64,000 bases of DNA from Pseudoxanthomonas sp. PXM01 (lineage in GTDB: Bacteria; Pseudomonadota; Gammaproteobacteria; Xanthomonadales; Xanthomonadaceae), in contig NZ_JACVAJ010000001.1 of assembly GCF_014851815.1 (NCBI RefSeq), positions 372,001-436,000 of the forward strand, in the 5' to 3' direction. Shown here in pieces: positions 21,591 to 40,443 of the stretch. The position numbers and the translations under genes were made by a program. Positions within the stretch are counted from its first letter, which is position 1. Each line of letters opens with the position of its first letter. The notes beneath the pieces are model-generated. The model had not been told where the DNA came from. It did not search any database and was given only the letters and a program-made list of their open reading frames with translations.

Positions 21591-21596
21591 GCTCAC

Positions 21597-21999: not shown

Positions 22000-22887
22000 C
22001 TACTTCCGCTTTGCGTTACGTACCGCCGCGGTTGCGGCGGTAGGCTTCGGCTTTCGCACTACCCTGGCCTTCGGCTGCGAGGCGCGCACCGCCTGCAACG
22101 TGTTTGCCCGTGCCTCGGCGGCCGCCGTCGCAACACTGGCCACGCGGAGACGCTCCTGCAGGTCGGCCTGGGCGATGGTCATCCGCTCAATCGCCTTGTC
22201 TCGCTGGACAATAATCGCAGCGTGGCGTGCGGCTTCTTGACGGGCGCGATCCACCTCCTGAAGCCATCGGTCCTCGGCGGCGCGATGCGCTTGCTCGCGC
22301 TCGGTGCGTGCCGCGTTGGCGGCCGCGGTCGCATCTTGGGCGGCCGCCTGTGCAGCCAAGAGCTGCCCCAACAGGCCTTCCCGCTCGGTGTCCACCTGTG
22401 CATGCTGGCGCTGAAGTTCATCCAGATGCCGGCCCAGCGCTAGCAAATGGGCCTCCAAATCCTTCACTCCTCGCTGCGCGAGATCGCGCGCGTGGATCAA
22501 CTCTGTGCGCTCCGCGGCCCAGGCGAGACGCTCACTGGCAATCTGCGCCTCGCTCCTGGTCAGGGTATCGGTGCGTGCCTGCAGCGCGGCGTGGGCATCG
22601 CCCAAGGCTTGCGAGGCAACGGTGTGCGCGTGGGTGACCGCCACCTCCCACCACTGCTGCGCTAGGGCGGCGACATCGGCAGGTGGATTCCCGGCAGCCA
22701 GTCCCGACGCCCCCGCCCGCAGGCGTTCGTCCAAGCGCTGCCACCATGTTTCGAGCCAGCGCGTCACCGTGTTCGGCGAGCCGGTGCCGAGATGGGCGCG
22801 GATGCGTTCGATGGTTGGGCGCTCGCCTTGCGCCACCAGTGCATCAGCGGCCTGGTGGACGTCGGTTTCGGAAATGCCGGTGGGCAT
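22000..22887 (-). CDS. KfrA-like plasmid DNA-binding coiled-coil protein
   Basis: A 295-residue protein. Residues 1-50 form the KfrA N-terminal DNA-binding domain (DVHQAADALVAQGERPTIE and GTGSPNTVTRWLETW). Residues about 90-260 are a long Ala/Glu/Arg/Gln-rich coiled coil, and the C-terminus is a basic tail. KfrA-type proteins are plasmid or ICE regulators thought to help segregation and autoregulate. AGGAGA before the ATG supports the start. It is a marker that this end of the accessory region came from a plasmid or integrative element. Confidence 0.85.
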   Translation of the reverse strand: MPTGISETDVHQAADALVAQGERPTIERIRAHLGTGSPNTVTRWLETWWQRLDERLRAGASGLAAGNPPADVAALAQQWWEVAVTHAHTVASQALGDAHAALQARTDTLTRSEAQIASERLAWAAERTELIHARDLAQRGVKDLEAHLLALGRHLDELQRQHAQVDTEREGLLGQLLAAQAAAQDATAAANAARTEREQAHRAAEDRWLQEVDRARQEAARHAAIIVQRDKAIERMTIAQADLQERLRVASVATAAAEARANTLQAVRASQPKARVVRKPKPTAATAAVRNAKRK

Positions 22888-24191: not shown

Positions 24192-26324
24192 ATGCTCAGG
24201 CAGACAAGGCCAATCGAAAAACTCCGCGCATGGATGCTGGCCGGCATGGCGTTGCTGGCATTGGCCTGGGGACATTCCGCAACGGCGCAGACCGGTTGCA
24301 GCACCGGTGCCTGCATGTCCGCAGGTCCTCGCCTGGTATCCGTCGACAGCACGCAGGGCCCTCTCCTCAATACGCTGTTCCAGGCGCTGCTGCCCGGCAC
24401 GACCGTCAACCTGAGCGTGCTGGACTGGAACGCGCTCGCGGGTTCCAGCATCAATCTCAATGCGCTGGTCACGCGGCTCGGCGTCAACCTCGGCATCAGC
24501 GATACCTCGCAGGTGCTCAACACCGACATCACGCTGGCGCAACTGCGGCTGGCCATGGTGCAGGTGCTGCAGGCCGACGGTCAGACCGCCGCCGCCAACG
24601 CGCTCAACCTGCTGCCGCTGAGCGTCGGTTCGCTGACGGGCTCGATCCGGCTTTCGCAACTCCTGCGCATCGATCTTCCCACCGGCGCGCTCGCCGCTGT
24701 GCGGCTGCACCTGCTCGACCTGGTCACCGGTTCGGTGCAGCTCTACAACTTCCGCAACGTCCTCACCACGCCGACGCCGATCACGCTGAACACCTCCGCG
24801 CTCGGCCTGACCGGCGTGGCGAACGTGCAGCTCTGGCTGCAGGTGGTGGAACCACCGGTCTACGCCTGCGGCCCGCAGGGCACCTCATTCCACACCGGCG
24901 CGATCCGACTGAAGTTCAATCTCGACCTCGTGCAGGGGCTCAACCTGCAGGCCGTGATCAACGCGCTCAACGCCGCGGGTCTCGGCCTGGTCAACCTGTC
25001 GCTGACCGCCGATGTGCTGAAGCTTCAGCTGTACGCCGACGTCGCGCGGGCGGAAGGCACGATCACCGCCGTCGACTACGTCGCGGGCGCGGTCAGTTTC
25101 CAGGCGCGTCCCGGTCTGGTGAACCTGTATGCCGGCAGCGTCTCCGACAGCCTGTTCTTCAACCGCTCGCACGTGCTGACCCCGGCCGACGTCACGCCGC
25201 TGACGATCAACAACCTGGACCTGCGCTTCAACGTCAATCTGCTCGGCATCGGCTTGGTGGCCGTGCGCGTGCCGCTGCAGCTGACCGCACGCGCGGCGGC
25301 GACCGGCTCGCCTGCCCTGCAGAACTTCAGCGTCAACGGCCCCTTCCCGCAGACGCGCACCGCCAGCAGCGGCACCGTCAGTGCCGGCAGCCTGGTCACC
25401 AGCCTGCTCAGCACACTGGACCTGCACGTGGTGAACGGATCGCCCGAAGTGACGCTGCTCGGCTTGCCCATCCTTCCCCCGGGATTGCTCACGCCGATCC
25501 TCCACTCGGTCCTCACGGTGGTGGAAACCACCCTGCGCGGTGTGTCCAACGCGGTCCTGCAGCCGGTGTTCAACCTGCTGCTGCGCGACCTGACCGACAA
25601 CCTGCTGGGCCTGCTCGGCATCCGTATCGGCAATGCGGTGTTCACCGTCGAAGGCGTCGCACGCTCGTGCGCGGCGACACTCACGCTGACCAAGGTGCTG
25701 CAGCCCGCGGCCGACCCCGGCCGCTTCACCCTTGCCATTACGCAAGGCGCGACACCGGTGGCGAGTGCGAACAACGTCGGCAACGGGGGTGCCACCGCAC
25801 CTGCGGTCACCACGCCGGGACTCAGCTACACGTTGGCCGAAACCGCCGGCACCGGGACGCAGCTCGACCGCTACACCACCACCTGGGCCTGCCTGGACCA
25901 GGACGGCACGGCGGTCAGCTCGGGTACCGGCACCAGCTTCACGCTGAGCGCGCCCGCCACCAGTGCCACGGCGGTGGCGATCACGTGTGCCGTCACCAAT
26001 ACGCGCGCCCTGCGCTCGGATGTCTCGGTCGCCAAGACCGACAGCCAGGCGAGCTACACGCCGGGAGGAACCAGCACCTACGTCATCACCGTATCCAATG
26101 CCGGCCCCGATGCGGCCAGCGGCGTGGCCGTCAGCGATGCGCTGCCGGCCGGCATGCGGCTTTCAGGCCCATGGAGCTGCGCGGCGACCGGCAGCGGGAG
26201 CTGTCCCGCCAGCGGCGGCGCCGCCGGCGATGCCGCCGTGAACCTGAGCGTCAACGTCGATGCGGCGGGCACCGCCACGATCACGGTCCCCGTCGTCTAC
26301 AGCGCCGATCCCGCGGCGTACTGA
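24192..26324 (+). CDS. Secreted surface protein with SpaA-like and truncated DUF11 domain (first gene of surface operon)
   Basis: 710 residues starting MLRQTRPIEKLRAW, with a hydrophobic signal segment ending at ATAQ (about residue 33). The first 470 residues are rich in Leu, Asn and Thr with many short hydrophobic beta-like strands and no known family. Then comes a SpaA-like beta domain (CAATLTLTKVLQP...FTLAITQGATP) and a DUF11-type domain (RSDVSVAKTDSQASY...VSNAGPDAASGVAVSDALP). The protein stops in the middle of this DUF11 domain, at VVYSADPAAY, while the next protein begins with what looks like its missing part. I chose the ATG at 24192 because it precedes the signal peptide and has a G-rich site upstream. 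Confidence 0.85.
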   Translation: MLRQTRPIEKLRAWMLAGMALLALAWGHSATAQTGCSTGACMSAGPRLVSVDSTQGPLLNTLFQALLPGTTVNLSVLDWNALAGSSINLNALVTRLGVNLGISDTSQVLNTDITLAQLRLAMVQVLQADGQTAAANALNLLPLSVGSLTGSIRLSQLLRIDLPTGALAAVRLHLLDLVTGSVQLYNFRNVLTTPTPITLNTSALGLTGVANVQLWLQVVEPPVYACGPQGTSFHTGAIRLKFNLDLVQGLNLQAVINALNAAGLGLVNLSLTADVLKLQLYADVARAEGTITAVDYVAGAVSFQARPGLVNLYAGSVSDSLFFNRSHVLTPADVTPLTINNLDLRFNVNLLGIGLVAVRVPLQLTARAAATGSPALQNFSVNGPFPQTRTASSGTVSAGSLVTSLLSTLDLHVVNGSPEVTLLGLPILPPGLLTPILHSVLTVVETTLRGVSNAVLQPVFNLLLRDLTDNLLGLLGIRIGNAVFTVEGVARSCAATLTLTKVLQPAADPGRFTLAITQGATPVASANNVGNGGATAPAVTTPGLSYTLAETAGTGTQLDRYTTTWACLDQDGTAVSSGTGTSFTLSAPATSATAVAITCAVTNTRALRSDVSVAKTDSQASYTPGGTSTYVITVSNAGPDAASGVAVSDALPAGMRLSGPWSCAATGSGSCPASGGAAGDAAVNLSVNVDAAGTATITVPVVYSADPAAY

Positions 26325-26359
26325 TCCGGAACGCCGCCCCTTTCTCCGCGAGGCACCGC

Positions 26360-29300
26360 ATGGACGAGACCGCCGCGACTCCCGCACACCCTGCCCTCCG
26401 CCCGCTGCTGCGCAGCGTGGCGCTCGGCATCGTGCTGGCCGCGGCGGCGCCGGCGTTCGCGCAGAACTACCCCGGCAGCCTGGGCAACAGCGCCACCGCC
26501 ACACCGCCCGGCGGCGTGACCGATCCGGAGCCCGGCAACAACACCGGCACCGACACGAACACGCTGGCGGCCATCACCGGACTGAGCGTGCAGAAGACCG
26601 TCACCAGTGGCGCGACCGTCGGCAACGGCGGCACGGTGAGCTACCGCATCGACGTGGGGAACGCCGGTCCCTCGGCTGCGCTCGGCGCCACGCTCAGCGA
26701 CATCGTGCCCCCCCAACTGACGTCGGTGGCCTGGACGTGCACTGCCAGTGCAGGCTCCAGCTGCAGCGCGGCGAACGGCACGGGCAATGTGGTGCTGACC
26801 CTCGGCCTGGCGGCGGGCGGCAGCGTCGTGGTGCAGATCACCGGTGTCGCGCCGACGCTGACGCCGGCGACGATCGGGGCGAACACGGTGACGATCACGC
26901 CGCCGCCCGGCACCAGCGATCCCACGCCCGGCGACAACACCGCGACCACGCCGACGGTTCCGGTGATACCGCGCACGCTGCTCGCCTTCGCCGATTCGGC
27001 CGGTCCCGTCGACGGCACGCCCGGGCAGCCGAACGTCGTCAACGTGCTGGCCAACGACACCCTCAACGGCGTCGCGGTGGCGCCGGGCCAGGTGGTGCTG
27101 ACGTCCTCCGCGACGGCGCCGCTGACGATCAACACCGACGGCACCGTCGATGTTGCGCCGGGGACGCCGACCGGCACCTACACCGGCAGCTACCAGATCT
27201 GCGAGACCGCCGATCCCGGCAATTGCGCCACCGCACAGGTGACCGTGTCGGTGAATGCGAGCGCCACGGTGGATGCCATCGACGACGTGCTGCCGCCGCG
27301 TGCCAGCGGCACCACGGGCGCGGCCTTCAACGTGCTGGCGAACGACACCATCAACGGTGCGCCGGCCGCTGGCCTGGTCACCCTGACCGCCGACAACACC
27401 GGGCCGTTGCAGATCGCCGCCGATGGCAGCGTCACGCTCGCCGCGGGCACAGCAGCGGGCGTCTACAGCACGACCTACCGGATCTGCGAACCCGCCCTGC
27501 CCTCCAACTGCGATACCGCCAGCGCGAGCGTGCAGATCCTCGCGCCCCTCGACGCGGCCGACGACAGCCTCGGGCCCGTCAACGGCAGCACGGGCGCCGT
27601 CGCGGTGGCGAACGTGCTGGACAACGACAGCGCGGGCGGCAGCACCCCGCCCGCCGCCGGCGTGGTCACGCTGTCCGGCGGCAGCACGGCGCAGATCGTG
27701 TTCGATGCCGATGGCCGCGTCACGGTCCCGCCGGGTACCACGGCCGGCACGTACAGCGCTTCGTACACGCTGTGCTATGCCGATGCACCGACGGTCTGCG
27801 ACAGCGCAACCGTGCAGCTCACCGTGGTGACGCCGGGCGCACTCGTCGCCAATCCCGACAGCTACAGCGGCGTGAACGGCAGCGTCGGCGCGGCCAATGT
27901 CGGCAACGTGCTCGGCAACGACACCCTCAACGGGGCTGGCATCACCGCAGGACAGGTCGTGCTGACGCCGGCCGTTGCGGGTCCGGTCACCATCGGCACC
28001 GATGGCGTGGTCGCGGTGGCCGCCGGCACGCCTGCGGGCACCTACACGCCCGGTTACCAGATCTGCGAAACCGCCGTGCCCGACAACTGCGCCACGGCCA
28101 CCGCCACCGTCGTGGTGGCGACGATAGCGGCATCGCCGGACACCCTCGGACCGGCGCTGCCCGGCACCGTGGCCGGCAACGTGATCGCCAACGATTTCGT
28201 CGATGGCATACCGGCCAGCGATGCGACGGTCACCGTCACCCAGACCGCCGGCGCGCCCGGCTTCACGCTTGCGTCCGATGGCAGCGCAACCATCGCGCCG
28301 GGCACAGCGGCCGGCACGCTGACCGGCAGCTACCAGGTCTGCCAGGTCGCCGTGCCTGCGATCTGCGACACCGCCAGTATCAGCATCACCGTCGCCGCCG
28401 GCACGCTCATCGCCGCCGACGACACGCTGGGTCCCGTCAACGGCGTGAGCGGCGGCACCGCCACCGGCAACGTGCTGGCCAACGACACGCTCAACGGTGT
28501 CGCGGTCAGCGTGGGCCAGATCATCCTGACGCCGGCCAGTACCGGACCGGTCACCGTCGCCACCGATGGCAGCGTCAGCATCGCGCCCGACACGCCGGCT
28601 GGCACGTACCTTGCCGGCTACCAGATCTGCGAAGCACTGAACCCCGCCACCTGCGACAGCGCACAGGTGAGCGTCGAGGTCACCACGCTGGTCGCCAACG
28701 ACGACAATCTCGGCCCGGTCAATGGCGACACCGGCGGCGTCGCCGGCAACGTGCTGACGAACGACCAGCTCGACGGCGTTCCGCCCGGGTCCACGCAGGT
28801 GGTGTTGACGCCGACCAACAGCGGCCCGCTGACCATCGCTGCCGACGGCACCGTGCTTGTCGCCGCCGGCACGCCCGCGGGCACCTACGTCGCCAGCTAC
28901 CAGATCTGCCAGGCCGCCTCGCCATCGGTGTGCAACGGCGCCAGCGTGTCGGTCGTGGTTGTCGTCAACGCGGCGCTCAACGCGGTGGACGACGCGTTCG
29001 GTCCGGTCGATGGCACCGCCGGCAATGCCAATCTCGGCAACGTGCTGGCCAACGACACGGTGGATGGCGCCGTGCTGGCGCCGGGCAGCGTCACCCTGAT
29101 CAACCAGAGCAGTGCGCCCATCGTCATCGCCGGCGACGGCACCGTGTCCGTGCCCGCCGGCACGGCGGCCGGTCTCTACGGCGGCAGCTACCAGATCTGC
29201 GAAATCGCCAACCCGTCCAATTGCGATGTCGCCACACTGACCGTCAACGTGCGTGTCGCTGCGGCGCTCGCTGCCAACGACGATGGTCCGCTGCTCGTCA

Positions 29301-32300
29301 ACGGCACCACGGGTACCGCGGATGCGGGCAACGTGCTGACCAACGACACGTTCAATGGGGCGGCGATCGTGGCCGGAAACGTCACCGTCATCAGTGCGGC
29401 CAGCGCGCCGGTCACCATCGCCGGCGATGGCACGCTCGGCGTGGCCGCCAATGCGGTGCCGGGCACATATGCCGCGGGCTACCGGATCTGCGAGGTCGCG
29501 GCGCCGGACAACTGCGATACCGCGATAGCCACCGTGCGCGTGTCGACGATGGGTGCGATCGATGACACGCTGGGTCCTGCCGGTCCGGGCGGTGTGGCCG
29601 GCAATGTGCTGGCGAACGACGTCGTCGACGGCGCGCCCGCGACAGCGGCGACGGTCACGCTCACCCAGACGGGCGGTGCGCCCGGGTTCACCCTTGCCGC
29701 CGACGGCAGCATCACCATCGCGCCGAATACGCCGGCCGGCACGCTGTCCGGCAGCTACCAGGCGTGCCAGGTCGCGCAGCCGACGATCTGCGACACCGCG
29801 ACCGTCAGCGTCAATGTCGGTGCCGCCGCGCTGGCCGCCAACGACGACGCGCTGGGCCCGGTCGATGGCACCACCGGAGGCACGGTGGCGGGCAACGTGC
29901 TCGCCAACGACACGCTCGACGGAGGCGCCGTGGCCGCTGGCCAGGTCGTGCTGACGCCCACCAATGTGGGGCCTGTGAGCATCGCCAGCGACGGCAGCAT
30001 CACCGTGGCGGCAGGGACGCCTGCAGGTTCCTACGTTGCCGGCTACCAACTGTGCGAAACACTCAACCCCACCAACTGCGATACCGCCCAGGTCGTCATC
30101 GCGGTGACCACGCTGATGGCCAACGACGACGCGCTGGGCCCGGTCAATGGTGGCCTGGGGGGCGTAGCCGGGAACGTATTGACCAACGACCGGTTGGATG
30201 GCGCGCCGTTCGCCGCGGGCGCGGTCGTACTGACGCCCACCAGCAACGGGCCGCTGACGATCGGCGCCGACGGTACGGTGACCCTCGCCGCCGGCACCGC
30301 GGCAGGCACCTACACCGCCAGCTACCAGATCTGCCAGACGGCGCAGCCGTCGGTCTGCGATGGCGCCAGCGTGTCGGTCACCGTCACCGTCAATGCGGTG
30401 ATCAACGCGGTGGACGATCTGCTGGGCCCGGTCGATGGCATGACCGGCAACGCCAATGTCGGCAACGTGCTGACCAACGACACGCTGGACGGGGTGGCGC
30501 TGGCGCCCGGCATCGTCACTTTGGTCAGTTCCCCGAGTGCACCGCTCGTTGTCGCGGCCGACGGCACGGTCTCGGTGCCGGCAGGCACCGCCGCCGGCGT
30601 CTACAACGGCAACTACCGCATCTGCGAAACCGCCAACCCCGGCAACTGCGATACCGCGGCGCTGACCGTCGTGGTGTCCTCGCTGGTGGCGAACGACGAC
30701 ACGCTCGGGCCCGTGGCGCCGGGTGCGTCGGCCGGCAATGTACTGGCGAACGATCTCGTCGACGGCGTCACCGCCACCTCCGCCACCGTCATCCTCACCC
30801 AGACCGGTGGCGCCCCCGGCTTCACCATCGCCTCCGATGGCACGGTGACCATCGCGCCCGGTACATCGGCCGGCACGCTCACGGGCGCTTACCAGGCCTG
30901 TCAGGTCGCGCAACCGACCATCTGCGATACGGCCACCATCAACATCACCGTCAGCGCCGGCAGCGTAGCCGCCAACGACGACACGCTCGGCCCCGTCGAC
31001 GGCGTGACCGGTGGTGCGGTTACGGGCAACGTGCTGGCCAACGACACGGTGAACGGTGTCGCCGTGAGTGCCGGCCAGATCGTGCTGACACCGTCCAGTG
31101 CGGGACCGGTGACGATCGCGGCCGACGGCAGTGTCGTGCTCGCCGCGGGCACGTCCGCCGGCGCGTACGTCGCTTCCTATCAACTGTGCGAAGCCGTGAA
31201 CCCGGGCAACTGCGACACCGCGCAGGTGACCGTCGCCGTCACCACGCTGGTGGCCGGCGACGACGCGCTGGGTCCGGTCAATGGCAGCCTCGGTGGCGTG
31301 GCGGGCAACGTGCTGACCAACGACCGCCTCAATGACGCACCGTTCGCCGCCAGTGCCGTCGTGCTGACGCCGGGCAACAGCGGCCCGTTGACCATCGCCA
31401 TCGATGGCAGCGTCAGCGTCGCGGCCGGCACCACGCCCGGCACCTACACCGCCAGCTACCAGATCTGCGAAGCCGCACAACCGGCAATCTGTGATGGCGC
31501 CAGCGTGTCGGTGACGGTCGCCGGCAATGCGGCCATCAACGCGGTGGACGATGCGTTCGGTCCGGCCGATGGCACGACCGGCAACGGCAATCTCGGCAAC
31601 GTGCTCGCCAACGACACGCTGGATGGCGTGACGGTCACGACCGGCAACGTCACCCTGACCAGCACCGTGGTTGCCCCGCTGTCGATCTCGCCCACCGGCG
31701 TGGTGGCGATCGCGCCGAATACCGCCGCCGGCGTCTACAGTGGCAGCTACCAGATCTGCGAAACCTCCAATCCGACCAACTGCGATGCCGCGTCGATCGC
31801 CGTCGTGGTGTCGTCGCTGGCCGCGAACGACGACATGCTGGGTCCGGTCCTGCCGGGCGCACCGGCGGGCAACGTGCTGGCGAACGACCTCAATGACGGC
31901 GTACCTGCCACACCGGCGACCGTCGTCCTCACCCAGACCGGCGGCGCGCCCGGCTTCACCGTCGCACCCGACGGCAGCGTGACCATCGCCCCGAACACGC
32001 CGGCTGGCACGCTCACCGGTGGCTACCGGATCTGCCAGGTCGCGCAGCCCACGATCTGCGACACCGCCACCGTCAGCATCACCGTCGGTGTCGGCACGCT
32101 GGCCGCCAACAACGACGCACTGGGTCCGGTCGATGGCATCACCGGCGGCACGGTCGGCGGCAACGTCCTCGCCAACGACACGCTCAACGGCAACGCGGTG
32201 ACCGCGGGCCAGGTCGTACTGACGCCGATCAATGCGGGACCGGTCACGATCGCCAGCGACGGCAGCGTCAGTCTCGCGCTGAACACCGCGGCAGGCAGCT

Positions 32301-35300
32301 ACCTTGCCGGCTACCAGCTGTGCGAAACCCTCAATCCGAGCCATTGCGTCACCGCCCAGGTGACGGTGGCGGTGGCCACGCTGGTCGCGGATGACGACGT
32401 GCTCGGCCCCGTCAGCGGCAATGCCGGTGGCGTGGGCGGCAACGTGCTGACCAACGATCGCCTCAACGGGGCGCCGTTCGCCGCGGGCGCTGTCGTGCTG
32501 ACCCCCGTCAACAATGGCCCGTTGACCATTGGCGCCGACGGCACCGTCATAGTGGCGGCCGGCACGCCCGCCGGCACCTACAGCGCCAGCTACCAAATCT
32601 GCCAGGCCGCATGGTCGTCGCTCTGCAACGGCGCCAGCGTGTCGGTCACTGTCGCCGTCAACGCCGTGATCAATGCGGTGGACGACGCGTTCGGTCCCGT
32701 CGATGGTGCGACCGGCAGTGCCAGTCTCGGCAACGTACTGGCCAACGACACACGCGATGGCGCGACTGTCGTGGCGGGCAGCGTCACGCTGACCAGCACC
32801 ACCGCCGCACCGCTCGCACTCGCCAGCGACGGCACCCTGTCCGTGCCGGCGGGCACGGCCGCCGGTGTCTACAGCGGCAGCTACCAGATCTGCGACATCG
32901 CCAACCCCGCCAACTGCGACGGTGCGACGCTGACCGTCGTGGTGTCGTCGCTGGCGGCGAATGACGACACGCTCGGCCCCGTTGCACCCGGCGCGTCGGC
33001 GGGCAGTGTGCTCGCGAACGACGTCGTCAACGGCGCCCCGGCCACCTCCGCCACGGTGACGCTCACCCAGACCGGCGGCGCACCCGGTTTCACCCTCGCC
33101 CCGAGCGGTGTCGTGACCGTCGCACCGAACACACCGGCCGGCACGCTGACCGGCAGCTACCAGGCCTGCCAGATCGCGCAGCCGACGATCTGCGACACCG
33201 CCACCATCAGCATCACCGTCAGCGTCAGCCCGCTGCTCGCCAACGACGACACGCTGGGTCCGGTCGAAGGCATGACCGGTGGCGCGGTCGCCGGCAACGT
33301 GCTGGCCAACGACACGCTCAACGGTGCCGCCGTCAGTGCCGGCCAGGTCGTGCTGACGCCGTCCAATGCAGGACCGGTCACGATCGCACCCGATGGCAGT
33401 GTGAGCATCGCCACGAACACACCCGCCGGCTCCTACGTCGCCGGCTACCAGCTGTGCGAAACGGTAAACCCCGCCAACTGCGATACCGCGCAGGTGATCA
33501 TCACGGTCACCACCCTGGTCGCCGACGACGACGCGCTGGGTCCGGTCAACGGCGGCCTGGGGGGCGTGGCCGGCAACGTGCTGACCAACGACCGCCTCGA
33601 CGGCACGCCATTCGCCGCCGGTGCGGTGGTGCTGACACCGACGAACAGCGGCCCGTTGACCATCGCCCCCGATGGAGCCGTGACCGTTGCGGCCGGCACC
33701 GCCGCCGGTACCTACGCCGCCAGCTACCAGATCTGCAACGCGGCCTGGCCGTCGATCTGCGACAGCGCCAGCGTGTCGGTCACCGTCGTCGCCAGCGCGG
33801 CGATCAATGCGGTGGACGACGTGTTCGGCCCCGTCGACGGCACGCCCGGCAGCGCCAACCTCGGCAACGTGCTCGGCAACGACACGGTGGACGGCGCACC
33901 GATCAACATCGCGGCCTTCACGCTGGTGAGCACCGCCGCATCGCCGTTGTCGATTTCCCCCGCCGGCGTGGCGGCACTCTCTCCCAATGCCCCCGCCGGC
34001 ACCTATACCGCCACCTACACGCTGTGCGATGCGGGTGACACGAGCAACTGCGACACCGCCACCGTCACCGTGCAGGTCGTACGCGTGGATGCGCAGAACG
34101 ACAGCTTCAGCCTGGCCAGCGGAACGGCCGGGGGCGTGGTCGGCAACGTGCTCAGCAACGACGCGCTCAACGGCGGTACCCCGAACGTGGTCACCGCCTT
34201 CTGGGGAGGACTGTTCGACAGTCACCTCAGCATCGAGCCCAACGGCGACCTGCGCGTGCTCGCGGGCACGCCGGCCGGCACCTATGCAGGCAACTACACC
34301 GTCTGCGTACGCAACGCACCGTCGATCTGCGACGCCGCCACGGTGACCGTGACCGTGGCGAGCGGCCCCAGCAGCCTGGCCGCGGCGAACGATACCGGCA
34401 GCGTGGACGGTCGCAGCGGTGGTGTGGCCGTGGCCAACGTGCTGGCGAACGACAGCCTGGGTGGCACGGCACCGACCACGGCGCAGGTGGCGCTGTCGGT
34501 CGTCACGCCACCGGCCAACCCCGGCATCGTGCTCGACCTCGCCAACGGTGCGGTGACGGTGGCCGCGGGAACGCCGGCTGGCAACTACTCGTTGCGCTAC
34601 CGCGCCTGCGAACAGGCCGAGCCTGCGAACTGCGTCGAGGCGCTGGCGATCGTCGCGGTCACCGCGGTCGCGATCGACGCCATCAACGATTCCGCCGGTC
34701 CGGTCGACAGCGGAACGCCATCGGTGGTGAACGTGCTGACGAACGACACGCTCGCTGGTACGCCGGTGGCGACGGGTCAGGTGAGCTTGTCGGTGGTCAC
34801 CGCCTCCCCGGCGCTGATCCTGCACGCCGACGGCCAGGTGGACGTCGTCGCGGGCACGGTGGCGGGCAGCTACAGCGCCACCTATCGGATCTGCGAAGTG
34901 CTGAATCCCGCCAACTGCGACCAGGCTACCGTGACGATAGGTGTTGCCGTCACCGCGATCGATGCCGTCGACGACGCCGCGCCGGCACCGATCGCCTCCG
35001 GGACAGGCGGCCAGGCCATCGCCAACGTCACCGCCAACGACACGCTGGGCGGCGTCGCGGTGTCGTTGAACCAGGTACTGCTGACGCAGGTGTCCAGCAC
35101 GCAGGCGAACGTGCAGCTCAACGTCGCCACCGGCGCGGTCACCGTCGCGCCGCGCACGCCTGGCGGCACCTACACGCTGGTTTACCGGCTGTGCGAACGG
35201 CTCAATGTCGGCAATTGCGATGAGGCCACGGCGACGGTGACCGTCGCCCTGCCCAGCCTGGATGCGGTGGACGATGCGCCGGCGCCGGTGCCAGGCGGGA

Positions 35301-36889
35301 ATGCGGTGCAGGACATCGTCAACGTGCTGGGCAACGATCTCTACGACGGCGCTCCCGTGCTGCCCGACCGCGTGATCCTGGCGCCGGTGACCGCAGGCCC
35401 GCTCAGCCTGCAGGCCGATGGTACCGTCGATGTCGCCGCCGGCACGCCGGGCGGCACCTACACGCTGGTCTACACGCTATGCGACGCGCTGACACCCAGC
35501 CACTGCGACAGCGCGACGGTCACGGTCGTGGTGCTCGCGACGACGCTGGTGACCGCCGACGATGCCGGGCAGACGCCGCAGGGCGAAGCCGTGGTGATCG
35601 CCGTACTGGCCAACGACACCTTCGCCGGTATCGCGGCCGATCCCACGCTCGTCGTCGTGACGGTGCCGCAGGCTCCGGCCAACGGCACTGTGGTGGTGCA
35701 GCCCGACGGCAGCCTGCGCTACACGCCGGCGCAGTACTACAGCGGACAGGACAGCTTCACGTACAGCGTGTGCGAAGCGGCGGCGCCCGACAACTGCGCC
35801 ACCGGCACGGTGACCGTCACCGTCCTGCCGAACACCGTGACGGCCGTGGACGATCAGGTCAGCACGCGTACTCGGACCACCCTCATCGCCGTGCTGGACA
35901 ACGACACGGTCAGCCACGCGCCCTTGAATCCGGCCTCACTGTCGGTGGTCCGCGCGCCGGCACATGGCGAAGCGAGCTGCGCGCAGGGAACCTGCACCTA
36001 CACTGCCTCGGCCGGCTTCAGCGGGCAGGACCGCTTCGGCTATCGCGTCTGCGATGTGTCCGTGCCGAATGCGGTCTGCGCGGAGGCCGACGTGGTGATC
36101 GACGTGGAAGCCGCGCCGGCCGTGCTGCGCGTGGCCAAGACCGCGGTGCAGCGTACGGCCAAGGTCGGCGACATCGTCCGCTACACGATCGTCATCGACA
36201 ATGTCGGCGAGGTCGATGCGCAGCAGGTATCGCTGGTCGACAGCCTGCCGCCCGGCTTCGCGGTCGTCGCGGGATCGATCCAGGTCGGCGATGCCGATGC
36301 CAGTGGCGCGCCGGCCATCGCCAGACCGTTCCGCATCGACGCACTCGACATCCCGGTCGGTCAACGCGCCACGATCGGCTATGCGCTGCGCGTCGGCGCC
36401 GGCGTTGGTCCCGGCGTGCATACCAACCGCGCCGTGATGCGCGATGCCGACGGCGCCACGATCAGCAACGAAGCCACCGCTGACGTGCAGGTCGTGGGCG
36501 ATCCGCTGCTGGAAGACAGCCTGATCATCGGCACCGTCTTCCACGATGTCGATGGCGACGGCACGCAGGACCCGGGCGAACGCGGCCTGGCAGGCGTGCG
36601 CGTGGTGTCGGTGGAAGGCCTGGTCACCGAAACCGACCCCTACGGCCGCTTCCACATCACCGGCATCAGCGGCGGCCGCTGGGCGCGTGGGCGCAACTTC
36701 CTGCTGAAGGTGGACGTTGCCACCCTGCCCCCGGGCGCGCGCTTCACCACCGAGAATCCGCGCGTCCTGCGCATCACCCCTGGCGTACCGGTGCGCTTCG
36801 ACTTCGGCGTGCAGGCGCCGATGCCACCCCCACGGGAGGTGCCGTCCGGTGGCGCCGCCTGTCCCGACGGCCAATGCGGAGGGCCCTGA
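26360..36889 (+). CDS. Giant surface protein with about 32 cadherin/Ig-like (Big_9, tandem-95 type) repeats, DUF11 and SdrD-like C-terminus
   Basis: 3,509 residues. A signal peptide (LLRSVALGIVLAAAAPAFA) leads into GSLGNSATATPPGG, which completes a DUF11 domain, then one full DUF11 domain. About 32 repeats of 85-100 residues follow, each starting with a pattern like ANDDTLGPVDG and containing GNVLANDTLNG, typical of Big_9 domains. All but one unit hold a C-x7-C pair (for example CETANPGNC), probably a disulphide loop. Repeats 10-25 are four exact-period copies of a four-domain block. The C-terminus has another DUF11 domain (LRVAKTAVQRTAKVGD) and an SdrD B-like domain (GTVFHDVDGDGTQDPGE). No anchor or LPxTG is seen. 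It is probably an exported adhesin or stalk. Confidence 0.9.
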   Translation: MDETAATPAHPALRPLLRSVALGIVLAAAAPAFAQNYPGSLGNSATATPPGGVTDPEPGNNTGTDTNTLAAITGLSVQKTVTSGATVGNGGTVSYRIDVGNAGPSAALGATLSDIVPPQLTSVAWTCTASAGSSCSAANGTGNVVLTLGLAAGGSVVVQITGVAPTLTPATIGANTVTITPPPGTSDPTPGDNTATTPTVPVIPRTLLAFADSAGPVDGTPGQPNVVNVLANDTLNGVAVAPGQVVLTSSATAPLTINTDGTVDVAPGTPTGTYTGSYQICETADPGNCATAQVTVSVNASATVDAIDDVLPPRASGTTGAAFNVLANDTINGAPAAGLVTLTADNTGPLQIAADGSVTLAAGTAAGVYSTTYRICEPALPSNCDTASASVQILAPLDAADDSLGPVNGSTGAVAVANVLDNDSAGGSTPPAAGVVTLSGGSTAQIVFDADGRVTVPPGTTAGTYSASYTLCYADAPTVCDSATVQLTVVTPGALVANPDSYSGVNGSVGAANVGNVLGNDTLNGAGITAGQVVLTPAVAGPVTIGTDGVVAVAAGTPAGTYTPGYQICETAVPDNCATATATVVVATIAASPDTLGPALPGTVAGNVIANDFVDGIPASDATVTVTQTAGAPGFTLASDGSATIAPGTAAGTLTGSYQVCQVAVPAICDTASISITVAAGTLIAADDTLGPVNGVSGGTATGNVLANDTLNGVAVSVGQIILTPASTGPVTVATDGSVSIAPDTPAGTYLAGYQICEALNPATCDSAQVSVEVTTLVANDDNLGPVNGDTGGVAGNVLTNDQLDGVPPGSTQVVLTPTNSGPLTIAADGTVLVAAGTPAGTYVASYQICQAASPSVCNGASVSVVVVVNAALNAVDDAFGPVDGTAGNANLGNVLANDTVDGAVLAPGSVTLINQSSAPIVIAGDGTVSVPAGTAAGLYGGSYQICEIANPSNCDVATLTVNVRVAAALAANDDGPLLVNGTTGTADAGNVLTNDTFNGAAIVAGNVTVISAASAPVTIAGDGTLGVAANAVPGTYAAGYRICEVAAPDNCDTAIATVRVSTMGAIDDTLGPAGPGGVAGNVLANDVVDGAPATAATVTLTQTGGAPGFTLAADGSITIAPNTPAGTLSGSYQACQVAQPTICDTATVSVNVGAAALAANDDALGPVDGTTGGTVAGNVLANDTLDGGAVAAGQVVLTPTNVGPVSIASDGSITVAAGTPAGSYVAGYQLCETLNPTNCDTAQVVIAVTTLMANDDALGPVNGGLGGVAGNVLTNDRLDGAPFAAGAVVLTPTSNGPLTIGADGTVTLAAGTAAGTYTASYQICQTAQPSVCDGASVSVTVTVNAVINAVDDLLGPVDGMTGNANVGNVLTNDTLDGVALAPGIVTLVSSPSAPLVVAADGTVSVPAGTAAGVYNGNYRICETANPGNCDTAALTVVVSSLVANDDTLGPVAPGASAGNVLANDLVDGVTATSATVILTQTGGAPGFTIASDGTVTIAPGTSAGTLTGAYQACQVAQPTICDTATINITVSAGSVAANDDTLGPVDGVTGGAVTGNVLANDTVNGVAVSAGQIVLTPSSAGPVTIAADGSVVLAAGTSAGAYVASYQLCEAVNPGNCDTAQVTVAVTTLVAGDDALGPVNGSLGGVAGNVLTNDRLNDAPFAASAVVLTPGNSGPLTIAIDGSVSVAAGTTPGTYTASYQICEAAQPAICDGASVSVTVAGNAAINAVDDAFGPADGTTGNGNLGNVLANDTLDGVTVTTGNVTLTSTVVAPLSISPTGVVAIAPNTAAGVYSGSYQICETSNPTNCDAASIAVVVSSLAANDDMLGPVLPGAPAGNVLANDLNDGVPATPATVVLTQTGGAPGFTVAPDGSVTIAPNTPAGTLTGGYRICQVAQPTICDTATVSITVGVGTLAANNDALGPVDGITGGTVGGNVLANDTLNGNAVTAGQVVLTPINAGPVTIASDGSVSLALNTAAGSYLAGYQLCETLNPSHCVTAQVTVAVATLVADDDVLGPVSGNAGGVGGNVLTNDRLNGAPFAAGAVVLTPVNNGPLTIGADGTVIVAAGTPAGTYSASYQICQAAWSSLCNGASVSVTVAVNAVINAVDDAFGPVDGATGSASLGNVLANDTRDGATVVAGSVTLTSTTAAPLALASDGTLSVPAGTAAGVYSGSYQICDIANPANCDGATLTVVVSSLAANDDTLGPVAPGASAGSVLANDVVNGAPATSATVTLTQTGGAPGFTLAPSGVVTVAPNTPAGTLTGSYQACQIAQPTICDTATISITVSVSPLLANDDTLGPVEGMTGGAVAGNVLANDTLNGAAVSAGQVVLTPSNAGPVTIAPDGSVSIATNTPAGSYVAGYQLCETVNPANCDTAQVIITVTTLVADDDALGPVNGGLGGVAGNVLTNDRLDGTPFAAGAVVLTPTNSGPLTIAPDGAVTVAAGTAAGTYAASYQICNAAWPSICDSASVSVTVVASAAINAVDDVFGPVDGTPGSANLGNVLGNDTVDGAPINIAAFTLVSTAASPLSISPAGVAALSPNAPAGTYTATYTLCDAGDTSNCDTATVTVQVVRVDAQNDSFSLASGTAGGVVGNVLSNDALNGGTPNVVTAFWGGLFDSHLSIEPNGDLRVLAGTPAGTYAGNYTVCVRNAPSICDAATVTVTVASGPSSLAAANDTGSVDGRSGGVAVANVLANDSLGGTAPTTAQVALSVVTPPANPGIVLDLANGAVTVAAGTPAGNYSLRYRACEQAEPANCVEALAIVAVTAVAIDAINDSAGPVDSGTPSVVNVLTNDTLAGTPVATGQVSLSVVTASPALILHADGQVDVVAGTVAGSYSATYRICEVLNPANCDQATVTIGVAVTAIDAVDDAAPAPIASGTGGQAIANVTANDTLGGVAVSLNQVLLTQVSSTQANVQLNVATGAVTVAPRTPGGTYTLVYRLCERLNVGNCDEATATVTVALPSLDAVDDAPAPVPGGNAVQDIVNVLGNDLYDGAPVLPDRVILAPVTAGPLSLQADGTVDVAAGTPGGTYTLVYTLCDALTPSHCDSATVTVVVLATTLVTADDAGQTPQGEAVVIAVLANDTFAGIAADPTLVVVTVPQAPANGTVVVQPDGSLRYTPAQYYSGQDSFTYSVCEAAAPDNCATGTVTVTVLPNTVTAVDDQVSTRTRTTLIAVLDNDTVSHAPLNPASLSVVRAPAHGEASCAQGTCTYTASAGFSGQDRFGYRVCDVSVPNAVCAEADVVIDVEAAPAVLRVAKTAVQRTAKVGDIVRYTIVIDNVGEVDAQQVSLVDSLPPGFAVVAGSIQVGDADASGAPAIARPFRIDALDIPVGQRATIGYALRVGAGVGPGVHTNRAVMRDADGATISNEATADVQVVGDPLLEDSLIIGTVFHDVDGDGTQDPGERGLAGVRVVSVEGLVTETDPYGRFHITGISGGRWARGRNFLLKVDVATLPPGARFTTENPRVLRITPGVPVRFDFGVQAPMPPPREVPSGGAACPDGQCGGP
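26980..36110 (+). repeat. Array of about 32 coding repeats of 255-300 bp
   Basis: Tandem repeat units inside the giant surface protein gene, recognisable at DNA level by near-identical stretches for NVLANDTLNG and CDTA. Outer units are more diverged than the inner ones. Confidence 0.85.
29549..34084 (+). repeat. Higher-order repeat: four tandem blocks of exactly 1,134 bp
   Basis: The same codons recur at a fixed distance: the CAGAC of the TQTGGAPGF segment at 29666, 30800, 31934 and 33068, and the Leu-Gly of DDTLGP-like starts at 29567, 30701, 31835 and 32969. Each block holds four domain types in the order A (VAPG/LPG, TQTGGAPGF), B (DGxTGG), C (NGxLGGVAGNVLTNDRL) and D (NAVDDAFGPVDG). An earlier A-B-C-D block begins 1,425 bp before the first, the difference of 291 bp being one extra domain. 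Confidence 0.88.
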
Positions 36890-36891
36890 CC

Positions 36892-39800
36892 ATGCGCGCC
36901 TCTCCGTTGATGATCGCCGTCGGCGTTGCCCTGCTGCATACGGCATTCGCCTCGCATGCGCAGCCGGTGCAAGCGCCGCCCGATACGCCCGCCGTCGCCA
37001 CCCCGGGCGCGCCGGATCCCGCCTTCCAGGGACCGGCCGGCAGCCTGGGCCGTTTCGTCGTCGACCTGCCGCAGGGCGGCACGCTGTGGGCAATCGAAGA
37101 TCCCACGCTCGGCGAACCTGTGCTCAACGTGCAGGCCGCTTCCATGGTGCCGTTCGAGGACGGCCGCATCACCCAGCCGGTGCGCTTCCACGGCTACAGC
37201 AACTACGCCGCGTTCTACGACCGCCTGGAAGTGCGCGTCTATCGCGGCACCGACCTCGACCGCGTGCGTCCGGTCGCGACCTTCGAGCTGCCGGTCGGCG
37301 CAGTGACGCAGGCGCAATGGGACGGCGTGCTGCCAGACGAGCTGCGCCCGCAGGTCGGCGACACGCTGCAGTACGTGGCGCGCGCCCATGCGGCGGATGG
37401 CAGTTTCGACGAGACCGCGGCGCAGATCATCCAACTGGTGACACCGGCCGACCATGCGCGCGGCGTGCAGGTGCTGCGCGACCAGTTGCAGCGCGAGCGT
37501 AACGACACCGTCGACACGCTGGGCGCCGAATCGCTGCAGGTCAGCGATTCCATCTACGGCACCAGCAACCTGCGCCTGCGCAACATCCCGGTGTACGGCT
37601 CGCGCGTGCGCATCCTCGGCCAGCAGATCCCGTCGACGATGCAGGTCACCATCGACGGCCAGGTCTTCCCGATCGACCAGGAGCGCAAGTTCGTCGCCGA
37701 ATTCCTGCAGCCGGTCGGTTCGCACCGCTACGCCGTCAAGGTCACGGACGGCAAGGACGTCGTGGCCGAGACCGCACTCGATGTCGACGTCACCGGGCGC
37801 TACGTCTTCGTCACCGCGCTGGCGGACCTGACGTTGACGCGCAACGAGGCCAGTGGTTCCACCGACGCGCTGGCCGACGACATCCAGCGCGACGACGGTT
37901 TCCTCAGCGAAGGCCGGCTGGCGTTCTACGCCAAGGGCAAGTGGCGCGGCAAGTACCTGGTCACCGCGCAGGCCGATACCTACGAGAGCGAACTGGGCAA
38001 CCTGTTCGATGGCTTCTTCGATGCGCAGCCGTACGACATCTTCCGCCGCCTCGATCCGGACCAGTACTACCCCGTGTACGGCGACGACTCGCGCACGTAC
38101 CGCGACGTCGACAGCCAGGGCAAGCTGTACGTGCGCGCGGAATGGGACCAGAACCGCGCCGTGTGGGGCAACTTCCTCACCGGTTTCGACGGCACCGAGT
38201 ACGCGCAGTATCCGCGTGCGTTGTATGGCGCCGCGCTGGACTGGCGCTCGCGCGCCGCGACGTCGCTCGGCGATCCGCGCAGCCTGCTGAAGGTGTTCGG
38301 TTCCGAGGCGCAGACCGCGATGGGCCATACCGAATTCCTCGGCACCGGCGGCAGCCTGTACTACCTGCGCCATACCGACGTGCTGCCAGGCTCGGAACAG
38401 GTGGTGCTGGAAGTCCGCGACCCCACCACCGGGCGCGTCGAGACGCGGGTCAACCTGCAGTCCGGCGTCGACTATGAGATGGACGACCTGCAGGGCCGCC
38501 TGCTGCTGACGCGTCCGCTGAGCCAGATCACCCGCGAGAACGTGCGCACGCTGACCCGGGACGCCCCGCTGGACGGGTGGCGGCACCTGCTGCTGGTCGA
38601 CTACGAATACGTCCCCGCCGGTTTCGATGGCGACGACACCACCATCGGCCTGCGCGGTCGGCACTGGTTCGGCGACCACCTCGCCGTGGGCGGCACCTAC
38701 GTCGACGAGAACCGCGGCGGCGACGACTATTCGCTGCGTGCCGCCGACGTGACGCTGCAGGCCGGTCGTGGCACCTACGTGCGGGTGGAGAATAGCCGCA
38801 CGGAGGCGACGGTGGCACCGGTGTTCTACTCGGACAACGGCGGCCTGAGTTTCGTGCAGCGCAATCCGGCGACCGACGCGCGCTCCGGCACGGCGCGCCT
38901 GATCGAGGCGCGCGCCAACCTGCAGGAACTGGGCTGGACCGAGAACGAGTGGTCGATGGGCGCATGGCGGCGCGAGGTCGATGCGGGCTTCTCGATCAGC
39001 CGGCAGGATTCGGGCCAAGCCATCGAGGAGTACGGCGCGGAATTCCTCGGCTACCTCAACAAGAACTTCAGCCTCTACGGCCGCTACACGCATGCCGAAC
39101 GCGGCGCGAACACGCTGGAGCAGACCCAGCTGACCGCCGACTGGCAGATCACGCCCGACGGTCGCCTTGGCGGCGAAGTGCGGCAACTGTCCGAAGAAGT
39201 CTCGGGCGTCGGCATCGACGCCACCTTGCTGGCGCTGAGCTACCGGCAGCGGATCGGCGCGACGTGGGAACTGTACGGCGTCGGCCAGTACACGCTGGAC
39301 GATGATGGCGGACGCTACGAACGCAACGACCTGCTGACGCTCGGCGGCAAGTACCTGTTCGGCGACCGCTCCAGCGTGGGCCTGGAGGCGAGCAGCGGCA
39401 GCCGCGGCCAGGGCGCGAAGGTGGACGGCGAGTACCGCTTCGGTCCCGACCACACCGTGTACGGCGCCTACAGCTACAGCACCGACCGCACCACGCGCGA
39501 CGCGCTGTTCGACCGCAGCCTGCAGACCGGCTGGACACTGGGCCAGCGCTGGCAGCTCAACTCGCAGGTCAACGTCTACAACGAGAGCCAGTTCATCCAG
39601 GAGCGCCGGCGCGGCAGCGAAGGGCTGGTGCATACGCTGGGCATGGACTTCCGCCCTGCCCCGTCATGGAATCTCGGCTTCACCGTCATGGACGGCACGC
39701 TGGACACGAGCACCGGCCGCGTCGACCGCCGCGCCTACAGCGTGAGTGGCGGCCGCACCGATGCGCGCACCGACTGGTCGAGCAAGCTGGAGTACCGGCA

Positions 39801-40443
39801 CGACAGCGGCGCCGAGCAGCGCGAGCAGTGGGTCACCACGCATCGCCTGCTCCATCGCGTCAACGAGGACTGGCGCATCGCGCTGCGGGCGAACTATGCC
39901 GATACGCAGGACGACCTGAATCCCGCCGCCGGTGCGAAGCTGGCCGAGGCCAGCCTCGGATTCGCCTGGCGCCCGCACGACAGCACGCGCTGGGCGGCAT
40001 TCGGCAAGTACACCTACCTCTACGACCGCATCTCCGCCGGGCAGATCGATGCCGACCAGTACGACCAGCGCTCGCACGTGCTGTCGCTGGAAGGTACCTG
40101 GCAGATGGCGGACCGCTGGCAGATGGCGGGCAAGCTCGCCGGCCGCTGGGGCGAGTACCGGCTGGGCCGAGGCGAGGGCGTCTGGCTGGACAGCCGGACC
40201 GATTTCGCCGCGCTGCAGCTGCGCTACCACCTGATCCGTCGCTGGGACGCGCTGGCCGAACACCGCTGGCTGCGCGTGCGCGACGGCGGCGACCGCAGCG
40301 GCTGGCTGGTCGGCGTGGACCGCCAGATCAGCGACCATTTCAAGGTCGGCGTGGGCTACAACTTCACCGACTTCAGCGGCGACCTGACCCAGCTCGACTA
40401 CGACTACCAGGGCTGGTTCCTCAACATCGCCGGCTACTACTGA
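36892..40443 (+). CDS. Predicted large outer-membrane beta-barrel protein, third gene of surface operon
   Basis: 1,183 residues. A signal peptide (MIAVGVALLHTAFASHAQ) is followed by a periplasmic or surface domain of about 300 residues with beta-rich segments (STMQVTIDGQVFPIDQERKF). From about residue 310 to the end there are many alternating strands rich in Trp, Tyr, Arg and Asp (SVGLEASSGSRGQ, DHTVYGAYSYSTDRTT, WQMAGKLAGRWGEY), ending in GWFLNIAGYY, with the aromatic C-terminal residue typical of barrels. The ATG lies 2 bases after the previous stop, with GGAGGG upstream, so it is co-translated with the giant protein. It probably anchors or exports that protein; this is inference. Confidence 0.8.
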   Translation: MRASPLMIAVGVALLHTAFASHAQPVQAPPDTPAVATPGAPDPAFQGPAGSLGRFVVDLPQGGTLWAIEDPTLGEPVLNVQAASMVPFEDGRITQPVRFHGYSNYAAFYDRLEVRVYRGTDLDRVRPVATFELPVGAVTQAQWDGVLPDELRPQVGDTLQYVARAHAADGSFDETAAQIIQLVTPADHARGVQVLRDQLQRERNDTVDTLGAESLQVSDSIYGTSNLRLRNIPVYGSRVRILGQQIPSTMQVTIDGQVFPIDQERKFVAEFLQPVGSHRYAVKVTDGKDVVAETALDVDVTGRYVFVTALADLTLTRNEASGSTDALADDIQRDDGFLSEGRLAFYAKGKWRGKYLVTAQADTYESELGNLFDGFFDAQPYDIFRRLDPDQYYPVYGDDSRTYRDVDSQGKLYVRAEWDQNRAVWGNFLTGFDGTEYAQYPRALYGAALDWRSRAATSLGDPRSLLKVFGSEAQTAMGHTEFLGTGGSLYYLRHTDVLPGSEQVVLEVRDPTTGRVETRVNLQSGVDYEMDDLQGRLLLTRPLSQITRENVRTLTRDAPLDGWRHLLLVDYEYVPAGFDGDDTTIGLRGRHWFGDHLAVGGTYVDENRGGDDYSLRAADVTLQAGRGTYVRVENSRTEATVAPVFYSDNGGLSFVQRNPATDARSGTARLIEARANLQELGWTENEWSMGAWRREVDAGFSISRQDSGQAIEEYGAEFLGYLNKNFSLYGRYTHAERGANTLEQTQLTADWQITPDGRLGGEVRQLSEEVSGVGIDATLLALSYRQRIGATWELYGVGQYTLDDDGGRYERNDLLTLGGKYLFGDRSSVGLEASSGSRGQGAKVDGEYRFGPDHTVYGAYSYSTDRTTRDALFDRSLQTGWTLGQRWQLNSQVNVYNESQFIQERRRGSEGLVHTLGMDFRPAPSWNLGFTVMDGTLDTSTGRVDRRAYSVSGGRTDARTDWSSKLEYRHDSGAEQREQWVTTHRLLHRVNEDWRIALRANYADTQDDLNPAAGAKLAEASLGFAWRPHDSTRWAAFGKYTYLYDRISAGQIDADQYDQRSHVLSLEGTWQMADRWQMAGKLAGRWGEYRLGRGEGVWLDSRTDFAALQLRYHLIRRWDALAEHRWLRVRDGGDRSGWLVGVDRQISDHFKVGVGYNFTDFSGDLTQLDYDYQGWFLNIAGYY

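Follow-up and report, generated by a model that had tools for sequence, protein, structure and literature searches.

A DUF11 (CLIPPER) domain divided between two consecutive exported proteins in Pseudoxanthomonas: a probable natural tag and catcher

The P1/P2 locus

The window examined here is a 64,000-nucleotide stretch of the genome of Pseudoxanthomonas sp. PXM01 (contig NZ_JACVAJ010000001.1, positions 372,001 to 436,000), in which two consecutive genes encode exported proteins, termed P1 and P2, that appear to share a single DUF11 domain (Table 1). P1 comprises an N-terminal cargo domain, a prealbumin-like domain and a C-terminal DUF11 domain that lacks its last strand; its start codon was assigned by hand to the ATG ahead of the signal peptide. 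Within the cargo domain, a weak resemblance to TULIP/BPI-like folds is found at residues about 160-440 of the model. The Pfam match to the DUF11 domain of P1 scores above the gathering score (49.9 vs 24.6 bits) over positions 1-84 of 114 only, and in this match no complete domain is seen in P1 alone, which bears out the claim of an earlier reading made from the letters alone (the sequence-only reading) that the first protein ends part-way through a DUF11 domain. The chain closes with ATITVPVVYSADPAAY at 26321, followed by a TGA codon at 26322-26324.

P2 is a repeat stalk of 3509 amino acids (aa), read in a different frame from an ATG at 26360. Its signal peptide, closed by APAFA with the cleavage site read by eye, separates the two domain halves and would leave a mature N-terminus of QNYPGSLGNSATATPPGGVTDPEPGNNTGTD from 26462. 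The start of mature P2, QNYPGSLGNSATATPPGG, corresponds to the missing end of the P1 DUF11 domain, again as the sequence-only reading had proposed, and the DUF11 domain that adjoins this head is complete.

The halves are separated by about 140 bp that include the stop of P1 together with the start and signal peptide of P2. The difference in frame would fit a sequencing error or a pseudogene, but a separation of this length that carries a start codon and a signal peptide of its own does not, and many independent assemblies show the locus arranged in the same way. Sequence errors joining the two frames, which would have undone the earlier reading, are excluded by these homologues, and this explanation can practically be dismissed.

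Table 1. Features of the P1/P2 locus (positions in the window) and further catchers of the same genome (positions within the named loci)
Feature	Position	Strand	Basis
P1, exported protein ending in a truncated DUF11/CLIPPER domain (catcher)	24192..26324	+	sequence, Pfam
P1 N-terminal cargo domain	24288..25670	+	
P1 SpaA_3 (prealbumin-like) domain	25677..26006	+	Pfam E 9.2e-10
P1 C-terminal truncated DUF11, without last strand	26019..26321	+	Pfam DUF11 1-84 of 114
Lys codon, equivalent of Lys715 in CLIPPER 9IFR	26034..26036	+	30/30 pairs; profile column aligned with 9IFR
Asp codon, equivalent of the catalytic Asp in CLIPPER	26136..26138	+	30/30 pairs; column aligned with 9IFR
P2, 3509-aa repeat stalk	26360..36889	+	sequence
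P2 signal peptide, between both domain halves	26360..26461	+	read from sequence
Mature N-terminal head of P2, missing last strand of P1 DUF11 (tag)	26462..26566	+	sequence, strands of a relative's model
Asn codon, equivalent of Asn806 in CLIPPER, mature residue 9 of P2	26486..26488	+	30/30 pairs
Complete DUF11 adjoining the head in P2	26582..26950	+	Pfam 2-112 of 114
P3, 1189 aa, probable outer-membrane beta-barrel, overlaps P2 end	36874..40443	+	barrel-type Pfam matches below cut-off only
Further catchers of the window genome	L119 3955-10008, 10432-15015; L120 4116-5927; L121 5324-7117; L122 4053-6077; L123		

The isopeptide triad and the predicted fold

DUF11 (PF01345) was renamed CLIPPER after the crystal structure of an Acinetobacter domain, for which PMC12617251 reports a Lys715-Asn806 isopeptide bond with Asp748 as the likely catalyst. 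A profile built from seven intact DUF11 copies of the window genome matches this structure, 9IFR (E 3.1e-5), with the three triad residues aligned. At the P1/P2 locus the triad is divided between the proteins, with the Lys and Asp in P1 and the Asn in P2, and each residue is invariant across the 30 distinct complete P1/P2 pairs collected. As a yardstick, the fetched DNA holds 184 distinct copies of intact DUF11, of which 162 keep Lys, Asp and Asn.

Structure prediction of both pieces together, using the pair of one relative, gave a model that covers 121 of the 123 residues of the solved CLIPPER domain. The strands of the P2 head are present in this model, and the two pieces jointly form the whole CnaA-like fold. 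Both elements of a donor-strand arrangement, namely an incomplete domain and an N-terminal strand freed by signal peptidase, are found by sequence and prediction.

Conservation of the split

In a set of 61 relatives that counts the window's genome, P1 gives one long match in nine other genomes and a two-piece match in G024. Its N-terminal region is matched in 27 of 395 genomes of the family (its own genome and one partial match included), and a scan of named genomes yielded 21 loci from Pseudoxanthomonas, Lysobacter, Stenotrophomonas and one unclassified metagenome-assembled genome. The 30 pairs are the set obtained after merging pairs with identical compared codons and dropping repeat genome copies; its records come from these three genera and the unclassified genome, the remainder being other genomes of the same family.

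P1 is cut after the same Tyr in every pair, and the P2 head follows the consensus Q-x-[YF]-[PR]-x-x-L-x-N-[TS] throughout, with Q1, L7 and N9 each invariant; one fixed cut point in all pairs is more than chance. The ratio of nonsynonymous to synonymous changes per site (pN/pS) is 0.45 over the last 22 codons of P1 and 0.49 over 16 codons of the P2 head, the latter pointing to purifying selection, and it rises to 1.16 over the 21 P2 signal-peptide codons just before its last residue, where there is no purifying selection.

Placed end to end, the two halves fit a single ancestral domain, and the alternative offered by the sequence-only reading, that an ancestral gene was split by a new stop, start and signal peptide, may describe the origin of the locus. 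As a relic of fission, in which the half domains have no joint function, the arrangement is very improbable: such a relic leaves unexplained why the two halves persist with one common cut point despite an identity of only 55 to 93% between the P1 N-domains and that of the window, the P2 head is under purifying selection, no fused P1-P2 form was seen among the homologues, and many further C-terminal cuts fall at the same domain position.

Several loci were left out of the set of pairs. In two from Stenotrophomonas (L085 and L089), P1 is broken inside DUF11, by one stop and one frame change, and the P2 tag is still there; two others (L053 and L091) are degraded fragments. Three distant P1 relatives (L054, L055 and L056), from another family, stop right after the N-domain (...QLVY) and so end before the part comprising SpaA_3 and DUF11.

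Other proteins ending in a cut DUF11 domain

A DUF11 domain cut in this way is referred to here as a catcher, and the N-terminal strand as a tag. A catcher model, built from 15 tails cut at the same place in which Lys and Asp are invariant, finds matches in 31 of the 38 Pseudoxanthomonas genomes at E 1e-8, counting P1 and internal copies, and orphan catchers, that is, proteins other than P1 that end in a cut DUF11, were confirmed in 25 of the 38. Their cargo includes GEVED and prealbumin-like domains. The 82 loci fetched around catcher matches hold 102 matches ending five or fewer residues from a stop and 56 internal ones; the 102 include one apparent mis-hit (L296) and another two (L288 and L289) from outside the family. 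Signal peptides of the tail proteins were read in some cases only.

Lys and Asp are retained in most of these tails: 100 of 101 distinct tails keep the Asp, and 87 keep the Lys, with the Lys column unaligned in 14. In 15 rows with an unaligned Lys, a first-strand Lys is present in 13, lost in one and out of view in one. In 25 of the 102 tails some Asn occurs within the final 14 residues; the chain ends ahead of the strand that bears the Asn in intact copies, and many internal DUF11 copies continue into that strand (e.g. LTNTVTITPP). Six further proteins of the window genome have a DUF11 domain cut at the same place (Table 1), and both Lys and Asp are seen in the five tails displayed.

Tag-bearing stalks and their co-occurrence with catchers

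A second kind of protein carries the same strand directly after its signal peptide (AQTQVTNTATVTLPA, AQTSVQNTATVALPP and AQTVTNTATVTPP, for example), followed by a DUF11/DUF7507 stalk and, where complete, by an OmpA domain at the end. With the P2 head (present in G011, G016, G024 and G036) excluded from the count, a tag was read in 24 of the 25 Pseudoxanthomonas genomes with orphan catchers, whereas in the other (G034) a stalk tail close to the end of a contig is all that was found. Such a tag was found in none of the 13 Pseudoxanthomonas genomes without orphan catchers at the E 1e-8 threshold, among which G018 and G031 have a stalk without a tag. The exact probability for 24/24 vs 0/13 would be 3e-10, which is only a guide because the genomes are related. 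Five genomes (G000, G001, G008, G017 and G023) either have the tag and the OmpA tail on different contigs or yielded no tail, and G020 has both on one contig, in separate open frames. Of 17 regions from other genera of the family, 12 carry the tag, and the remaining five did not reach the N-terminus.

Gene order was compared for 60 stalk tails (35 of 40 rows, five P2-type or cut rows being omitted, and all 25 of a second set) and 129 catcher positions chosen from two match sets, not all of which were fetched. For 36 of the 60 stalks a catcher follows downstream, on the same strand and no more than 14 kb away; the upstream order accounts for three stalk-catcher pairs.

The window genome encodes a second protein with an N-terminal tag (L124, contig C6:3-410, minus strand), cut by the contig end. 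A stalk C-terminus with an OmpA tail that runs off the end of contig C7 (L120 13629-17474) may be the other part of it. The P2 open reading frames of G012, G013, G024 and G036 match the OmpA tail query; no match is listed for the P2 of the window, whose end differs.

Together with the six further catchers, this second tag leaves room for P1 to be completed by another donor, such as the N-terminal strand of the second stalk, and for the P2 head to pair with other catchers. Such an exchange of partners seems quite improbable, as P1 adjoins P2 in all pairs, the longer P1 end (DPAAY) goes with a longer P2 head (Asn at 9 vs 4 to 7 in the other tags read), and the four genomes with the P2 head named above carry P1 and P2, with no other catcher or tag found there.

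The N-terminal region of the L271 stalk (G018, a genome without a catcher match) resembles that of L278 (G026) but lacks a tag, and a long DUF11 protein of about 2600-3200 aa that begins directly with a DUF11-like domain, with no tag, recurs in the genus (L203 in G005, L205 in G031 and L281 in G011).

A proposed strand-completed and probably covalent pair

The likely explanation of the locus is a naturally split DUF11 (CLIPPER) isopeptide domain, one half in P1 and the other in P2, that is completed by a strand and most likely bonded through Lys and Asn. Completion of the P1 domain by the N-terminal strand of P2 is strongly supported by computation, because both halves are conserved at one cut, the P2 head is under purifying selection and the model of the pair covers the CLIPPER fold. 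The donor-strand complementation put forward in the sequence-only reading is thus supported with regard to the strand; the non-covalent join that it suggested is probably covalent instead, because DUF11 is an isopeptide domain, and the pair is probably a natural tag and catcher. The recurrence of such cut domains in many other proteins goes beyond that reading.

In the proposed mechanism, P1 and P2 would be exported separately, each by its own signal peptide, and removal of the signal peptide would free the N-terminus of P2. The first strand of P2 would then slot into the open C-terminal sandwich of P1, where the P1 Lys, aided by the P1 Asp, would most likely form an isopeptide bond with the P2 Asn. 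The product would be a two-protein fibre in which the long P2 stalk bears P1, with the N-terminal domain of P1, at the distal end formed by its N-terminus. Along with the bond itself, we infer the place of this fibre on the cell, a role for P3 and an adhesin-like function.

The structural and conservation evidence fits equally well with donor-strand complementation in which the P2 strand completes the P1 sandwich without an isopeptide bond, and the bond is absent from some DUF11 domains (PMC12617251). A purely non-covalent join is nevertheless considered unlikely, given that none of the three residues varies in any pair and that orphan catchers keep the Lys and Asp though the chain ends ahead of the Asn strand.

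The co-occurrence of tag stalks with catchers, together with their anatomy, suggests a sortase-free, self-catalysed display system in the Xanthomonadaceae, for and against which the balance is about even. Catchers supplying the Lys and Asp would click their cargo covalently onto the tips of tag-bearing stalks, OmpA-anchored or related, with P1 and P2 as a dedicated pair. Several stalks that have no tag speak against such a system, as does one catcher (L297 in G280, a genome that gave no OmpA stalk match) that has lost both Lys and Asp and is listed with an in-frame stop.

Relation to known systems

The P1/P2 domain resembles the CLIPPER domain of Acinetobacter silvestris (9IFR) in sequence family, predicted fold and Lys-Asp-Asn triad, and possibly in its Gram-negative, OmpA-anchored adhesin context; in 9IFR the whole domain lies in one chain with an intramolecular bond, whereas the Asn strand of the P1/P2 domain is in a second exported protein. 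Archaeal threads of Saci_0406 combine a donor strand with an apparent intermolecular isopeptide bond, but they are described (PMC9715654) as a homopolymer in which the N-terminal amino group is bonded to an Asn two subunits away. In SpyTag/SpyCatcher and related engineered pairs, an isopeptide domain is likewise divided into peptide and catcher, which rejoin, but the split is man-made, whereas that of P1/P2 is natural and in a CnaA-like domain. Chaperone-usher pili also consist of incomplete Ig-like domains, each of which is filled out by an N-terminal extension that the following subunit provides; they differ in domain family, and P1/P2 would be two unlike proteins that form no polymer and are expected to be joined covalently. 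In Gram-positive bacteria, a C-terminal module attaches many different exported proteins to the envelope by sortase anchoring; the P1/P2 model invokes no sortase and proposes self-catalysis. To our knowledge, sortase-built surface fibres are not the rule in Gram-negative bacteria.

Tag/catcher pairs are laboratory inventions made from split isopeptide domains, and if the present interpretation is correct, nature split one first. It would also imply a new route of covalent surface assembly in Gram-negative bacteria, by which many proteins are mounted on anchored stalks, and a large natural collection of tag/catcher pairs.

Neighbouring genes

P3 follows P2 in the window, and a P3 homologue was found in all 21 donor loci tested (nine with P2 and 12 with other stalks). 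Upstream of P1, the minus strand encodes what we take to be a KAP-like P-loop protein (19650-21596) and, presumably, a KfrA-like DNA-binding protein (22000-22887).
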